From positions 1-48,792 of the forward strand of contig JACCWM010000131.1 in NCBI GenBank assembly GCA_013697635.1: 48,792 bases of DNA, in the 5' to 3' direction. Positions 25,653 to 37,596 of the stretch are shown here, in pieces. Each line of letters starts with the position of its first letter. Positions within the stretch are counted from its first letter, which is position 1. The DNA comes from Lujinxingiaceae bacterium (GTDB lineage: Bacteria; Myxococcota_A; Bradymonadia; Bradymonadales; Bradymonadaceae). Position numbers and translations under genes: made by a program. The notes below the pieces were generated by a model. The model saw only the letters and a program-made list of their open reading frames with translations. It was not told the DNA's origin and ran no database searches.

Positions 25653-25893
25653 GCGTCGCATCCTTTTTTAATCCAACGATCGTTCGGCTAAACCAACGTC
25701 GTGCTAAAACAGTTGAGCGTCTTGGGCTATGCCAAAAGAGCACGCCCCCAAAACCAAACCAGGGTAATGTGTGCGAACAATTGCATTTCTAGTCTAAACG
25801 TGGTTGACTGGCCGCCTTATTTTCGTTTTCGGCGTTTTCGGGCCGACTGCTTGATATTTTTCAATGGTTTCAATGCTTTTTGGGAGCGCATTC

Positions 25894-27411
25894 ATGCAAC
25901 GAACTTTTCAAACCCTTCTGATTATTGGTCTGCTGGCGTCTTTGAGCTTTGCTACGGGTTGCGTCGAGAGTACGCCCGACGAACTCGCGGGCAACAATAC
26001 CACGGCGACCAACGAGGACGTCGAGGCCACGCTCTCATCGCTCGACAGCCTGATTCAGGGCGCGCCCAAGAACGACAGCCTGGGCAACGAGGGCAAGTCC
26101 GATACGGTCTATCCCAAGCAGTTCTCGGATTTGGTCGCCTCTCAGTCGTCGGTCAAGAGCCAGGGCAGCCGTGGCGTCTGCTCGATCTTCTCGACGGTGG
26201 CGCTCATGGAGCACCTCTACATTTTGGAAGGCAGCACGCCCAACCCGGATTTCTCCGAGCAGTATCTGCAGTGGTCGGTGAAGTTCGAGGTCAACCAATT
26301 TCGCAACACCAGCGGCTCCAACGCCAACTACAACATTGAGGCGATCAACCGCTTTGGCATCCCCAAAGAGGGCGGCTGGCCCTATGAGACCTTCGCATGG
26401 GGCTCGACTCAGGACGCGCGTTGCACCGGCGAGGAGGACAAGCGTCCGACCGAGTGCCACACCAACGGTGTTCCACCGCAGTCGGCGCTCGACTCGGAGA
26501 AGTTCACGCTTCCTCGTGGCCGCTGGGTCTCGACGCGCACGCGCGATCTCAAGGCCTTCATGCACAGCAAGCGCCAGGCTGTGATCGTCGGCGGCACCTT
26601 CTTCTACCAGGCCTGGAATCACCGCGCCTCCGAGCTGCCCACCAACCAGGAGTACTGGCGTGAGGGCTACGTGCTCTATCCGAGCGCCGAGGACAAGACC
26701 AAGAGCCTGGCCAAGCGCGCCGGCCACTCGATTTTGATCGTGGGCTGGGATGATGAACTCGAGGTCCAGAGCCTCGACGGCCAGGGCAAGAAGGTCGTCG
26801 ACGCCCAGGGCAATCCGGTCATGGAGAAGGGCTTCTTCATCTTCAAGAATAGCTGGGGCACGGGCAGCTTCGGCGTCAACAACAAGCATGGCGACGGCTA
26901 CGGCTACATCTCCTACAAATACATCGAGGAGTTCAAGTCGGCCTATGGCAGCGACCTGCCCGTGATCGCACCGCCCATTCCCCAGATCTGTGGCCAGAAC
27001 GTCAGCTGCGAAGATCCCAGCTGCGCCGATGCTGCGGCATGCGAAGTGGTCGGCGAGGAGACCGTGCAATTTAGCACCGAGCCCTTCCTCGACATCCCTG
27101 ACAACAACGCCCGTGGCGTGACCAGCTCGCTGGTCGTCTCGGCCACCGGCACGATCAAGGGCCTGGTCGTCGACGTGCTCATCGATCACAGCTACAACGG
27201 CGATGTGCGCATCGAGCTGGTGCATCCGGACGGCACCAAGGCCGTCTTGCGCCAGGATGACGGCAAGAGTGGCAAGGACATCGATGAGAGCTATCGCGTC
27301 GAGCGCTTCGATGGTAAGAGCGTTGCGGGCACCTGGAAGCTGATCGTCACCGATACGGCGGCGATCGACACCGGCTCGCTGCTGGAGTGGGGCCTCACCA
27401 TCACCAAATAA
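25894..27411 (+). CDS. Papain-like (C1A) lipoprotein protease with C-terminal P domain
   Basis: A 505-residue lipoprotein. Signal peptide with lipobox SFATGC (Cys23) and an Asn/Thr linker. The C1 peptidase domain carries Gln and Cys96 in VKSQGSRGVCSIFST, His278 in AGHSILIVGWDD and Asn319 in FIFKNSWGTGSFG, the complete papain catalytic set. The usual CGSCWA is altered to RGVCSI. The last 100 residues form a P/Homo-B domain (DHSYNGDVRIELVHPDGTKA, then WKLIVTD and GSLLEWGLTI), more usual on subtilisin-type proteases. The start ATG 25894 has GGGAGC upstream; an ATG at 25864 is an alternative. Probably a cell-surface or secreted protease. Confidence 0.82.
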   Translation: MQRTFQTLLIIGLLASLSFATGCVESTPDELAGNNTTATNEDVEATLSSLDSLIQGAPKNDSLGNEGKSDTVYPKQFSDLVASQSSVKSQGSRGVCSIFSTVALMEHLYILEGSTPNPDFSEQYLQWSVKFEVNQFRNTSGSNANYNIEAINRFGIPKEGGWPYETFAWGSTQDARCTGEEDKRPTECHTNGVPPQSALDSEKFTLPRGRWVSTRTRDLKAFMHSKRQAVIVGGTFFYQAWNHRASELPTNQEYWREGYVLYPSAEDKTKSLAKRAGHSILIVGWDDELEVQSLDGQGKKVVDAQGNPVMEKGFFIFKNSWGTGSFGVNNKHGDGYGYISYKYIEEFKSAYGSDLPVIAPPIPQICGQNVSCEDPSCADAAACEVVGEETVQFSTEPFLDIPDNNARGVTSSLVVSATGTIKGLVVDVLIDHSYNGDVRIELVHPDGTKAVLRQDDGKSGKDIDESYRVERFDGKSVAGTWKLIVTDTAAIDTGSLLEWGLTITK

Positions 27412-28993: not shown

Positions 28994-29107
28994 GGGCCTT
29001 CTCTCTGGCTGGTTGATCGACGCGGCCATGAACGCTAGAATCCCCCGTTGGTTGACGCCGCGCGGCTTTTCAGGGCAGGCGTTTTGTTTCAGGCCCAAAG
29101 GATGATG

Positions 29108-31078
29108 ATGTTTCGTGCATTGAACGATATACGATGCTTGCGCGCGTTGGCCTTGCTGGGTGTGCTTTTGATCGCCATGGCCGGCTGCGGCGATGAAGAT
29201 CCAGATGGTAGCGATGGCAGCGTCGGCGGTCGCGATGCACCCAATATCTCGGTCAATCCTGGAACGATCGATTTTGCCGAAGTCTCGATCGGCGCCCAGG
29301 ATCCCACCCGCTTGACGATCACCAACACCGGGCGCGGCGAGCTTCGTATCTCGAACATTGAGCTGGTCGACAACAGCGCCGACGGACTCACCGAGTTTCA
29401 TCGCGGCGAGGGTTGGAAGCGCTCGCTCAACCTCAAGAGCGGCGAGTCCCATGAGCTCGTCGTCATCTATCGCCCGCTCAATCGCACGCCCGATACCGGC
29501 TATATCGAGATCACGAGCAACAACCCGGGCGCCAACGGCGTGCTGCGCGTGCCGCTCTCCTCGCCGACGCTGGCTCCCAAGATCTTCTCGCCGAGTGTGG
29601 TGCAATTCAGCCGGGTGCCGGCCGGCCAGCGCGTCTACCAGGTGACACAGGTTCAAAACATTGGCCAGGCGCCGCTGCGAATCGACGACATCGCCCTGAC
29701 CGGCGCCGCTGACTTCACCATGTCCTTTCCCACCGCGCGCCAGGAAGGTGAGCTGGGCGATCCGGACACAGACCTTGCGCGCTGGCCGGCCACGATTGCG
29801 CCCAATGAGCAGTTTTTGGTGCGCTTTGGCTTTGAGCCCATCAATGACGAGCCGCGCCTGGCGGAGATGATCGTATTTACCAACGATCCGCTCACCCAGG
29901 AGTACGTCGTCTCCGTGTTGGGCAACAGCGGCTCGCCCTGTTTGAGCATGAACTACGAGCGCGGGCTCGATTTTGGCGCAAGCTCGATAGGCCAGGTGGC
30001 CAGTCGCACCGTGGTCATGGAGAACTGCAGCACCACGACGCCGCTTCGCATCAGCGCCATTGAGCTCGTCGACGACGCCGACGGGGTCTTCGAGCTTCGT
30101 GAGGGCAGCCTGCCCGGCGATCTGCCCGATGAAGTGCTGGTCTTGAATCCGCGCGCGAGCGTCAACTTCGCGGTCTCCTACACACCGGAGAACGAGCAGG
30201 AATCCTCGGCCCTGCTGCGTGTGAGCAGCAACGATCCGGCCAAGTCCACGCTCGAGGTGCCGCTCAGCGGCAGCGGCACCAACAACGCCTGCCCGGTGGC
30301 CGTTGCCGAGGGCCGGCTTGTAGGCTCGACGCGCTTTGTCGAGCTGTTTACCGCGCTACCGCTCAACACCGTCGAGCTCACCGGCTCGGGAAGCTACGAT
30401 CCCGATGGCAATATCCAGGGCTACGAGTGGACGGTGATCACGCGCCCGGACGGCTCGACGGCGCGGCCCAGCCCCAGCGCCGATATCATGGAGCCCACGC
30501 TCTACCTCGATCTGGCCGGCACCTACGAGATCGAGCTGGTCGTCTACGACAACCAGGGTCTGGCAAGCTGCGAGCGCTCGGTGATGACCATACACGCCGT
30601 GCCCCAGGACGACGTGCACATCCAACTGATCTGGGACGCACCGGCGGTGATCAATCCGGCCGAGGGCAACGGCACCGATCTCGACCTGCATTATCTGCAT
30701 CCGCTCGGTCGCTGGAACGAGGTGCCCTACGACATCTTCTGGAACAACCGCACCGCCGATTGGGGCCAAGCCGGCGACGTCACCGACAATCCGCGCTTGG
30801 ACATCGACGACACGTTCAAGGGCGGCCCTGAGAACATCAATCACAGCAACCTTGAGATCGGCATCGACTACGGCGTGGGCGTCTACTACTTCGCCGACCG
30901 CGGCTTTGGTGCCGCCTATGCGACCGTGCGCATCTACATCCGCGGTGAGCTGCGCTTCGAGGTCAAGAATCGCTACATGCCCGGCGAGGGCTACTTCTGG
31001 TACGCGGCGATCGTGCGCTGGCCGAGCACCGAGATCGTCCGCCGCGACCGCGTCGACTTCGGATTCCCCACCCGCTAA
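29108..31078 (+). CDS. Lipoprotein with Hydin/SPD-2-like Ig repeats and PKD-like domain
   Basis: A 656-residue lipoprotein, lipobox IAMAGC, with an Asp/Gly-rich linker. Three consecutive choice-of-anchor D (ASPM-SPD-2-Hydin) Ig-like modules follow, each marked by INFxxVxxG-type openings and NDP/NNP closings: SVNPGTIDFAEVSIGAQDP, SVVQFSRVPAGQRVYQV and GLDFGASSIGQVASRTVV, with SSNDPAKSTLEVPLSGSG ending the last. Then a PKD-like domain (GSGSYDPDGNIQGYEWTV) and a C-terminal beta domain (VHIQLIWDAP and onward) resembling LodA/prepilin-associated adhesive domains. Three consecutive ATGs (29102, 29105, 29108) follow AAAGG; spacing favours the last. Likely outer-membrane surface protein. Confidence 0.78.
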   Translation: MFRALNDIRCLRALALLGVLLIAMAGCGDEDPDGSDGSVGGRDAPNISVNPGTIDFAEVSIGAQDPTRLTITNTGRGELRISNIELVDNSADGLTEFHRGEGWKRSLNLKSGESHELVVIYRPLNRTPDTGYIEITSNNPGANGVLRVPLSSPTLAPKIFSPSVVQFSRVPAGQRVYQVTQVQNIGQAPLRIDDIALTGAADFTMSFPTARQEGELGDPDTDLARWPATIAPNEQFLVRFGFEPINDEPRLAEMIVFTNDPLTQEYVVSVLGNSGSPCLSMNYERGLDFGASSIGQVASRTVVMENCSTTTPLRISAIELVDDADGVFELREGSLPGDLPDEVLVLNPRASVNFAVSYTPENEQESSALLRVSSNDPAKSTLEVPLSGSGTNNACPVAVAEGRLVGSTRFVELFTALPLNTVELTGSGSYDPDGNIQGYEWTVITRPDGSTARPSPSADIMEPTLYLDLAGTYEIELVVYDNQGLASCERSVMTIHAVPQDDVHIQLIWDAPAVINPAEGNGTDLDLHYLHPLGRWNEVPYDIFWNNRTADWGQAGDVTDNPRLDIDDTFKGGPENINHSNLEIGIDYGVGVYYFADRGFGAAYATVRIYIRGELRFEVKNRYMPGEGYFWYAAIVRWPSTEIVRRDRVDFGFPTR

Positions 31079-32649: not shown

Positions 32650-32748
32650 AAGTGTATTATTGGCGCCGCAATTTTTGCGGCATTTGATTGAGTAGTTGAA
32701 GGAGAATTCCAGATGCGAACGAAGTGTAGATAGGCGGTATTAATTAGT

Positions 32749-35700
32749 GTGCTGTGTTTGTCAGTCACCGTCGGTTGTTCCGGCGAAGACGGACTCAACG
32801 GTAACCGTGGCGCGGACGGCGAGCAGGGCCCCATTGGCGAGGCTGGCCCGGAAGGCCCGACTGGCTTGCGCGGACTTGATGGCACGACTGGCGAAAGAGG
32901 CCTGCCTGGCACCGCCGGCATCGAAGGTCCTCAGGGCCTGCCTGGCGCACCCGGAGACGCCGGTCATACCGTGCGCTTCCTGGCCGAAGAGGCCGGCGAG
33001 AACTGCGAATTTGGTGGCCAGAAGATCCTCGTCGGCACCGAGTTCGACGAAGACGGCAACCTCGATGAGGAGGCCGAGAGCACCAGCACCCACTACCTTT
33101 GCGAAGCCGCCGCTGGTGCGGACGGCGACAAGGGCGACCAGGGCGACAAGGGCGACCAGGGCGACAAGGGCGACGACGGCGATAACGGCGATAACGGTGT
33201 CGCGCCGGTCATTCAAACCTTTCCCCTGGGCGTCGGTCACAGCGAATGCATCAACGGCGGAACGGCGGTCTACATCGGCTACCTCGATGAGAACGACGAA
33301 CTCGACCTTGCAAGCGCTGACGCAGTCTTCATCTGCAACATCAGCGTTGACGTCAGCGGCGAGGGCTCGGGCCTGACGACCGTGACCACGCCTGTTGGCG
33401 GCGGCTGCCATCAGGTTGTTTTCTTCTTTGACGACATCGCCTTTGGCGAAGTCACCGTTTGCAGCGGCGCCAAGGGTGACCAGGGCGACCAGGGCTGCGG
33501 CGTCACGATCGACGTCAGCACCGTTGCTGACAATTGCCTCGCCGGTGGATTCACGGTCACCACGACCGCAACCGGCGCAGGCTGCACCGCAGACAACGAC
33601 AGTGTCGTCCAAGTTTGCCATGGCGAGCAGGGCGACCAGGGCGAGCAGGGCTGTGCACCGACGATCACGCACACCGCCTTTGCCGTGACCAGCTCGACCG
33701 CAGGCAGCACCTGCACCGAGGGTGGTTTCACCGTCAGTGTCCAGGCTCGCGGCGGATTTCCTTGCGCCGACCAGGGTACTGCCTTGAGCTTTGACATCTG
33801 CAACGGTGTCGAAGGCGATCAGGGCAACCAGGGCGTGCAGGGCGTGCAGGGCTGCTCGCCGACGATCAGCCACACCTCTTTTAGTGGCATTTTGGGTTCC
33901 TGCACCCAGGGCGGTATCACCGTCACCAACCAGCCTCGCAACGGTTCGCCTTGCGCCAACTCCGGAACTGCCACTACCTACAACGTCTGTAACGGCGTTG
34001 AGGGCGCTCAGGGCTTCCAAGGCTGCTCGCCGACGATCAGCCACACCGCCTTTAGCGGCGTTTTGGGCACCTGCACCGAAGGCGGTATCACGGTCACCAA
34101 CCAGCCCCGCAACGGTACGCCTTGCACCAACTCCGGAACTGCCACCACCTACAACGTCTGTAACGGCGTCAAGGGCGACCAGGGCTTTCAGGGTTGTACG
34201 CCTCAGGTCAGCAATACGGCCTTTACCGGCTCGGCTGGCTCCTGCACCCAGGGCGGCTACACGATTACGACCACGCCGTTTAGCGGCACGGCCTGCACCA
34301 CGGCCGGAACCCCGAGCTCGTTCCAAATCTGCAACGGCAACCAGGGCTGCGGCGACACGATCGAGCAGAACACCCTGACCGCCGACCTCAACCGCTGCGT
34401 CTATGGCGGCAAGGAAGTCGTGATCAAGAGCTGGACCGGCGTCGGCTGCCTGACCGAGGTTACGCCTTCGGACTCCTTCGACGTCTGCTACCCGCGTGTC
34501 GAGAGCTGCAAGCTCGTTCCCTTCGGCGACTGCCGCGGCGTGGACTTCAACACCAACCCGTTCTTCGCCGGCCTCAAGGTCAACGGCGTGGTCACGATCG
34601 AGAACTTCGATCTGCGCTTCATCGACTTCTCGGCCACAAACCTGGAAGGCGCGGTTATCCGCAACGTCAATTTCGATGGCTCTGACTTCAGCGACGCCGA
34701 TCTGACCAACGCCGAACTCAACGACGTGAGCTTCAAGAACGTCGACTTCACCCGCGCGATTCTGGGCGGCGTGGGCGTGCTTACACCCAGCGTCCTCACC
34801 GGTGCATTCTGGGAATCGACGATCTGCCCCGACCTCAAGAACAGCAATGACAACAACAACACCTGCGTTAACGCGTTGGGAGTCTGTCAGTTGCGTGTCG
34901 ACGGCGTCTGCCGTGGCTTCGATCCCTATACCGGACCTCTGAACCTCTCCAATAGCGTTCTTAACGGAATGGACTTTCGCGATACGAAGTTCCCCACCGC
35001 CATGAACTTCGCCGGAACCGAGCTCAACGGAGCGATGTTCCAGGGAACTCTCCTGATCAACGCCAACCTGGCGGGCGCCAAATTGGCCGGCGCCATGTTT
35101 GACGGTGCCGATGTTAGCGGAGCGAACTTTGCCGGCGCCGAGCTCTACGATGCGACCTTCCTTCCAAGGACGTCGATCAACTACGTCGATCCCGTTGAGG
35201 TTCTCAGCCCCGCCGTCGCTGTCACCGCCATCGGTGCAGACTTTGACGCTGCCATGGTCCATCGTGTGCAGTTCGCCTCAGCGAACCTCACAGACGCGTC
35301 CTTTGTCGCTGCTGAACTCGAGGATGCCAACTTCGTCGGGACTAACTTGACAACAGCTGATCTGAGCCTCGCTTTCATCGACGAGGTCGTCTTCACCAAT
35401 GCCAACTTGACTGAGGCGAAGCTAAACAAAGCCGAGGCATTTATGGCCAACTTCAGCTCGGCAAACCTGACGGCGGCGAACCTCACGGATGCCATCATTG
35501 AGAGGGCCAATTTCTCCCAGGCGACCCTGACCAGTGCAATCTTGAGCGACGCCGAGGCACAACAAGCGAACTTCTCTCGCGCCACCATCACGCGTGCGAA
35601 TTTCGAACGTGCCAAGCTTGGCTGGACGAACTTCCAGGGTGCCACGGTGATCAATGGCACTGTTAACCCGGGTGCACGTTTTGTGGACGCCGACCTCTCG

Positions 35701-37596
35701 TTTGTCGACGCCCGTAGCTTTGAGGCAACCGCAACCAAGGCTAACTTCACCGGCTCCAACTTTGACAATGCAATCTTCCACGCAGCCAACGTGGGTGGCG
35801 CTGCAGTCCGAGCACCAATTTTCCGAGACGCAAGCTTTGTCGGGGCCAACTTCAACCCGGCAATCGACGAGCTGGCCAACACGGCCATTTACACCACGCT
35901 TCGTTGCGCGGACATTCGCGGCGCCGACTTCCAGAATGCGAAGCTTCACTACGTTCTGTTCACCGAGGGCGCTGCATCGACCGGGGGGTGCTCGAGCACT
36001 GACCTTTATAGCACGACGACCAATTTCACTGGAGCCGACCTTCGCGGGGCGACATTCAACGACAATTGGAAGTCGACCAGAGCCTCTGAAGTTCAATGGG
36101 GTGCGACGACCACTTGCCCGAACTACGGTTCTTCGAGCACTTCGGGCAACACCTGTGCAGGGGACCGCATGAACGCCTGCCGTCTCACCGACCGCACGAA
36201 CTGCAGAAATGCGGATCTTCGCGGCTATGACGGAAGCCAGACGCCTGCTTTGCTCTTCGACCTTCGTGACCGAAATTTCACAGGTTATGATTTCACGGGA
36301 GCACTCATCGAAGGCGCGGACTTCACGGAGTCAACTCTGACGGGTGCTAGTTTCAACCAGGCCATGGGTCTCAGCCCGAAGTTTGATTCGACTACACTTC
36401 GTGGCGTGAGCTTCGATGGTGCAACATTGGAAGACATCGACTTCGCGTCGGCGACGTTCGGCCTCAATGGTGCGGCCCGCGTGAACTTCACGAATGCAAC
36501 CCTGACCAATGTCCACTTCGACAACTTCCCGCTCCACGATATGACCTTCACGGGCGTTACTTTGATTGGCTCGACCCTGACCGGAGCGCTCGCCGGCGGC
36601 ACGACCAGCTTCGCTGGTGCGGACATTGTGGACTCTGCGTTCACGAGCATCACCAACCAGGCGAACTTCGCTGGTGCGGCGATTTACGGTTCGACCTTCG
36701 ATACCGTGAACTTTGTCGGCGGTTCCCTTGCCGGAGCCGAAATCTTGAACACCGTCAACACGTCCAGCTTTGTTGGCGCCGTCTTGACGGGTGTTTCGAT
36801 GGTTGATGCAAAAGTCGTTGGTGCGAACTTCAGAAACACCCAAATGAACAACGTCAACTTTACCGATGCCGACATGATCGGTGTCGACCTGCGCGGCTCC
36901 ACGTTGCTGAACGCCACGTTCACCGATGCTGACTTTTCGCAGTCCAATCTCACCAACACGGGTTCGAGCCTGACGGGTGCGACCTTCTTGAGGACCTGGC
37001 TGAACGAAACGAACCTGAGTGGTTTGAATCTGACCGGTTCGACCTTTACGAACGTCCGGCTCAATGGCACGGATCTGACGAGCGCAACGCTTCGCGATGC
37101 GACGATCACAGGTCTGGGTAACGGAACGCTCGTTGCCACCGCCAGCCTGCGTGGTGCGATCATCGACGGCACCTTCTCGAACATCGCATTTACGAACACG
37201 AATCTGTTGGGCTCGAATTTCACCAATTCGAGGCTGAACAACGTCAACTTTGCCAATGCAGTGACCATCGTCAACGTGGACGTGCTCGAGGAGCTGCGTA
37301 ATGTGAACTTCAATAACGTACTCTTCACGGGCGCTGTGAATTTCGGTAACCGCCTTATCCGCGGCGGAAGTTGGAGGTTTGCGAACCTCGAACTCGCAAT
37401 GGTCAACTTCGAAGACAACGTCTTTCAAGAAGGTACCGATCTCACCGGTATGTGTGGCCTGACCGATCAGGACGTGACCGCGAGCAACGTCTCGTTCCTC
37501 AGCACGCCGTCTCCGGCGGTGATTTGCCCCCTTGGCGGCAATCCATCCCCGCAATTGGAATGCGTGATGATTCCTGAGTGCAACCAGCCCCTGTGA
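32749..37596 (+). CDS. Giant lipoprotein with collagen-like, Cys-repeat and pentapeptide domains
   Basis: A 1,615-residue lipoprotein if started at GTG 32749. Lipobox VTVGC, then Gly-X-Y collagen-like runs (about 11-75 and 124-150, for example GDKGDQ units). Repeated Cys-rich modules of about 57 residues follow (about 185-560; SHTAFSGVLGTCTEGG, NVCNGVKGDQGFQGC). From about 582 to 1570 come three blocks of pentapeptide repeats of A(N/D)LxX type, each opened by a Cys module (CKL..GDCRGVD, CQL..GVCRGFD, CRL..TNCRNAD). A right-handed quadrilateral beta-helix rod is expected. An ATG at 32713 with AAGGAG is in frame but followed by TAG at codon 7, see findings. Ends at a strong terminator. Confidence 0.8.
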   Translation: MLCLSVTVGCSGEDGLNGNRGADGEQGPIGEAGPEGPTGLRGLDGTTGERGLPGTAGIEGPQGLPGAPGDAGHTVRFLAEEAGENCEFGGQKILVGTEFDEDGNLDEEAESTSTHYLCEAAAGADGDKGDQGDKGDQGDKGDDGDNGDNGVAPVIQTFPLGVGHSECINGGTAVYIGYLDENDELDLASADAVFICNISVDVSGEGSGLTTVTTPVGGGCHQVVFFFDDIAFGEVTVCSGAKGDQGDQGCGVTIDVSTVADNCLAGGFTVTTTATGAGCTADNDSVVQVCHGEQGDQGEQGCAPTITHTAFAVTSSTAGSTCTEGGFTVSVQARGGFPCADQGTALSFDICNGVEGDQGNQGVQGVQGCSPTISHTSFSGILGSCTQGGITVTNQPRNGSPCANSGTATTYNVCNGVEGAQGFQGCSPTISHTAFSGVLGTCTEGGITVTNQPRNGTPCTNSGTATTYNVCNGVKGDQGFQGCTPQVSNTAFTGSAGSCTQGGYTITTTPFSGTACTTAGTPSSFQICNGNQGCGDTIEQNTLTADLNRCVYGGKEVVIKSWTGVGCLTEVTPSDSFDVCYPRVESCKLVPFGDCRGVDFNTNPFFAGLKVNGVVTIENFDLRFIDFSATNLEGAVIRNVNFDGSDFSDADLTNAELNDVSFKNVDFTRAILGGVGVLTPSVLTGAFWESTICPDLKNSNDNNNTCVNALGVCQLRVDGVCRGFDPYTGPLNLSNSVLNGMDFRDTKFPTAMNFAGTELNGAMFQGTLLINANLAGAKLAGAMFDGADVSGANFAGAELYDATFLPRTSINYVDPVEVLSPAVAVTAIGADFDAAMVHRVQFASANLTDASFVAAELEDANFVGTNLTTADLSLAFIDEVVFTNANLTEAKLNKAEAFMANFSSANLTAANLTDAIIERANFSQATLTSAILSDAEAQQANFSRATITRANFERAKLGWTNFQGATVINGTVNPGARFVDADLSFVDARSFEATATKANFTGSNFDNAIFHAANVGGAAVRAPIFRDASFVGANFNPAIDELANTAIYTTLRCADIRGADFQNAKLHYVLFTEGAASTGGCSSTDLYSTTTNFTGADLRGATFNDNWKSTRASEVQWGATTTCPNYGSSSTSGNTCAGDRMNACRLTDRTNCRNADLRGYDGSQTPALLFDLRDRNFTGYDFTGALIEGADFTESTLTGASFNQAMGLSPKFDSTTLRGVSFDGATLEDIDFASATFGLNGAARVNFTNATLTNVHFDNFPLHDMTFTGVTLIGSTLTGALAGGTTSFAGADIVDSAFTSITNQANFAGAAIYGSTFDTVNFVGGSLAGAEILNTVNTSSFVGAVLTGVSMVDAKVVGANFRNTQMNNVNFTDADMIGVDLRGSTLLNATFTDADFSQSNLTNTGSSLTGATFLRTWLNETNLSGLNLTGSTFTNVRLNGTDLTSATLRDATITGLGNGTLVATASLRGAIIDGTFSNIAFTNTNLLGSNFTNSRLNNVNFANAVTIVNVDVLEELRNVNFNNVLFTGAVNFGNRLIRGGSWRFANLELAMVNFEDNVFQEGTDLTGMCGLTDQDVTASNVSFLSTPSPAVICPLGGNPSPQLECVMIPECNQPL
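33121..33198. repeat. 9/18-bp tandem repeats encoding GDKGDQ
   Basis: GACAAGGGCGACCAGGGC-type 18-bp units in three to four near-identical copies, decaying into GATAACGGC. They encode a collagen-like Gly-Asp-Lys-Gly-Asp-Gln run in the giant lipoprotein. Confidence 0.75.
33850..34359. repeat. 171-bp tandem repeats in the giant lipoprotein gene
   Basis: Three units starting at 33850, 34021 and 34192, exactly 171 bp (57 codons) apart. The first two are nearly identical at DNA level; the third is diverged, as are older units upstream from about 33460. Each encodes a Cys module ending in a short Gly-X-X collagen-like piece. Confidence 0.8.

Follow-up and report, generated by a model that had tools for sequence, protein, structure and literature searches.

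A large accessory gene for a surface lipoprotein with collagen-like and pentapeptide repeats has most likely been interrupted by a recent single nonsense mutation, a TAG at the seventh codon of its signal peptide. This reading is probable, and no new mechanism is needed to account for the TAG. The window, that is, the whole stretch of 48,792 nt that was analysed, corresponds to an entire contig (C190) of a draft genome of 6.2 Mb in 213 contigs. The sequence-only reading had described an ATG at 32713, preceded by AAGGAG (32699-32704), in frame with a gene of 1,615 codons and followed by TAG at codon 7, and the sequence agrees on every point. Translated past the TAG, the frame starting at this ATG reads MRTKCR-stop-AVLISVLCLSVTVGC. 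Because the same frame contains a TGA 24 nt upstream, ATG 32713 is the first start in its segment. Past the TAG, the frame remains open until TGA 37594-37596 (1,615 codons counted from GTG 32749), with gene-like codon use over these 4.8 kb. Table 1 lists the features of the site.

Table 1. Coordinates, in the window, of the interrupted signal peptide and of the frame that follows it
Feature	Position	Strand	Basis
Shine-Dalgarno (SD) AAGGAG of the ancestral start	32699..32704	+	sequence; anti-SD duplex -8.8 kcal/mol
ATG, ancestral start codon	32713..32715	+	aligned Met is the homologues' start
In-frame TAG, codon 7	32731..32733	+	sense codon at the aligned position in homologues
Weak SD-like AGGCGGT overlapping the TAG; possible site of restart at GTG 32749	32732..32738	+	duplex -7.0 kcal/mol; function inferred only
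Remainder of signal peptide: hydrophobic core and lipobox, up to Cys 32776-32778	32734..32778	+	
GTG, first canonical in-frame start past the TAG; only 10 residues to Cys	32749..32751	+	
Open frame: collagen-like repeats, DUF7151, pentapeptide repeats	32749..37596	+	Pfam

The ancestry of the signal peptide can be read from homologues in three other genomes of the same family, which start MRWKSKVGILFSSLCLAAFAAGC (G008), MSWKTRVKILASSLCLVAYAAGC (G002), and MKRKAGIFVSSFLVAAFAVAC (G017) and whose signal peptides are all intact. The two closest, from G008 and G002, align without gaps with the window over the first 18 residues, spanning the TAG, and both have Val at its position; in G017 too, this position is a sense codon. 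A profile built from the three homologues, with the window row excluded, matches the window from the first to the last profile position, starting at ATG 32713 and running across the TAG, with i-E values of 1.9e-8 for a 66-codon piece and 2.3e-5 for the whole frame. The match goes beyond chance, and nothing comparable was found in the other frames. A separate profile includes the window as an alignment row, and its E-values are partly circular for the window. Because the homologous signals are intact and align from the ATG across the TAG, ATG 32713 is, on this comparison, the ancestral start, and the TAG cuts a genuine signal peptide, in line with the earlier proposal of an amber codon inside an ancestral signal. 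The segment beyond the TAG had also been said to complete a textbook lipoprotein signal if the TAG is read as an amino acid. Its conservation among the homologues upholds the lipoprotein signal, but the lipobox, T-V-G-C, is slightly atypical at -3 (A-A-G-C or A-V-A-C in the homologues). The gene shares its signal ancestry with these lipoproteins, and its basic n-region, hydrophobic core, and lipobox Cys no longer stand in one uninterrupted frame, owing to the TAG at codon 7 and to the 10 residues left from the GTG. A stop where homologues have a sense codon is also what is expected of a young pseudogene.

The 1,615-residue frame from GTG 32749 combines a collagen-like stretch, a match to DUF7151, and long pentapeptide-repeat regions (Pfam). 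The pentapeptide-type regions match the G002 and G017 homologues; the G008 homologue is cut at a contig end, and its remainder likely sits on another contig. The named relatives that share the N-terminus are MAGs of Myxococcales. No further DNA copy of the gene was found elsewhere in the genome, where the other matches are short collagen-like stretches only, and the tested neighbour genes have no match on the contigs of the homologues, which gives no sign of synteny. The same genome encodes another collagen-like protein (L002, G000:C1) with an intact lipoprotein signal, MRSNRLVILMGFCLVALIGCGG. Two genes upstream of the interrupted gene, positions 29048-31078 encode HYDIN/ASH-type Ig domains and a PKD domain, likely in a surface protein too, and positions 25864-27411 encode a papain-family protease with a proprotein convertase P-domain at its C-terminus. 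A small hairpin, GCCGCAATTTTTGCGGC, is located at 32665-32681, 31 nt upstream of ATG 32713; its pattern is terminator-like, and one such match is about what shuffled sequence yields.

GTG 32749 is unlikely to be the proper start of the gene. Counted from this codon, the lipidated Cys is residue 10 and none of the preceding residues is basic; the very short signal of ten residues pointed out by the sequence-only reading is indeed exceptional. Among 78 genes of the same genome with a hydrophobic stretch and a lipobox, retrieved from 1.14 Mb with a home-made filter, it is the sole value below 17, the next shortest being 17; Cys distances were taken from the furthest-upstream in-frame start, a measure that tends to inflate those of the other genes. 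As a gene broken by a nonsense codon, it is of consequence chiefly for annotation: an automatic gene caller will pick this GTG and overlook both the membership in a lipoprotein family and the damage to the signal.

If the conserved signal peptide of this lipoprotein has recently acquired a nonsense codon, ribosomes initiating at ATG 32713 would produce a six-residue peptide and then terminate. A minority of them may restart at GTG 32749, which is possible because a weak SD-like AGGCGGT overlaps the TAG. The restart product would be devoid of the basic n-region and of most of the hydrophobic core, and should therefore not be efficiently exported or lipidated. We infer that the TAG is real and that export is lost; the lipoprotein would then be effectively off in the sequenced genome, the remainder of the gene not having decayed yet. 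A gene lost long ago should have gained more stops. The 1,615 codons contain no second one, which bounds unconstrained divergence since the loss to about 2.8% (95%), given that 2.2% of single substitutions create a stop. Three options follow: the gene was lost fairly recently, provided that the loss is real; selection persists; or the TAG is erroneous. The open frame and gene-like codons over 4.8 kb also fit an expressed gene or an assembly error, and together with the weak SD-like element before GTG 32749 they count against a nonsense mutation. The weights given here to the four readings are a matter of judgement.

The main rival, unlikely but to be taken seriously, is that the draft assembly of 213 contigs is wrong at this base, through base calling or consensus building, and that the real gene is intact. 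A lone stop in an otherwise clean frame of 1,615 codons with a conserved signal peptide is what such an error would look like, and the genome is indeed a draft. Against this, its estimated completeness is 99.45% and its contamination 0.66%, and the site is free of ambiguous or low-complexity sequence.

Termination at the TAG could also be coupled to a restart at GTG 32749 that yields a working protein, with MRTKCR acting as a leader peptide. Bacteria are well known to restart translation once it has terminated (review, PMC5972666), the GTG lies 15 nt past the stop, and the AGGCGGT over the TAG pairs with the anti-SD at a usable spacing, although less stably than the AAGGAG of ATG 32713 (-7.0 versus -8.8 kcal/mol). 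However, the homologues have an uninterrupted signal and no leader ORF, and the distance of 10 residues to a Cys that no basic residue precedes makes the resulting signal the only outlier of the 78. This explanation is improbable.

It is more doubtful still that programmed readthrough, amber suppression, or phase variation governs the lipoprotein. Reading through the TAG would restore the conserved signal peptide, and readthrough of in-frame stops has been argued to be possibly frequent in prokaryotes (PMC7918605). Amber recoding relies on a CUA tRNA, accompanied by PylS in the case of pyrrolysine. An amber-suppressor tRNA gene, for which the sequence-only reading had suggested a search, is not among the 44 distinct tRNAs typed in the genome: none has a CUA anticodon, in a census from which Ala-UGC and Ile-GAU, among others, are missing, probably because these two are located in unassembled rRNA operons. 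PylS was absent from the genome searched and RF1 is present, and amber suppression and pyrrolysine insertion were rejected on these grounds. So was genome-wide recoding, as TAG is an ordinary stop that terminates 152 of 614 genes (25% of stops) predicted by simple codon usage in stretches sampling 1.14 Mb, about 18% of the genome. A recurrent class of interrupted signals was likewise rejected: all but one of the 17 pattern rows in 1.14 Mb are intact from a start after the stop, and of the 614 genes only the present one has both a stop within its lipoprotein signal and no remaining intact start. The TAG is not conserved, contrary to a conserved readthrough site, since G002, G008, and G017 all have sense codons there. 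A phase-variable gene carries a repeat tract or an invertible element at its switch; no repeat or inverted repeat was found at the TAG, direct repeats being confined to the collagen-like coding region, and phase variation was rejected. A special RNA structure was rejected too, the fold around the TAG being not unusual (z -1.44). Of the explanations first offered for the TAG, a recent nonsense mutation and a sequencing error thus remain, whereas phase variation and readthrough are unsupported.

A scenario in which the species has fixed the TAG and low readthrough or coupled restart sets the amount of surface lipoprotein, as a translational dimmer within the signal peptide, is also very unlikely. 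A TAG that was fixed and still bypassed would offer a natural example, of a rare kind, in which a stop within a signal peptide exerts control.

In E. coli lacI, translation restarts after early amber mutations. The window gene likewise combines an early stop with downstream in-frame starts and an SD-like element but, unlike in lacI, a restart in a lipoprotein gene removes the signal peptide, and the product would be mislocalised. Lipoproteins from MAGs of uncultured Myxococcales (collagen-like/DUF7151/pentapeptide; SKNI01000272, SLJM01000500, SKQC01000204) align with the window over the signal peptide and the DUF7151-like N-terminus, their signal peptides being uninterrupted, unlike that of the window. 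In-frame stops in bacterial genes have already been described (Belinky et al. 2021, PMC7918605), with the same combination of a single in-frame stop, a gene-like frame, and a sense codon in homologues. In the worked example of that study, several genomes carry the stop at one and the same position, whereas the TAG of the window is found in no relative. Its authors consider many such stops to be short-lived.
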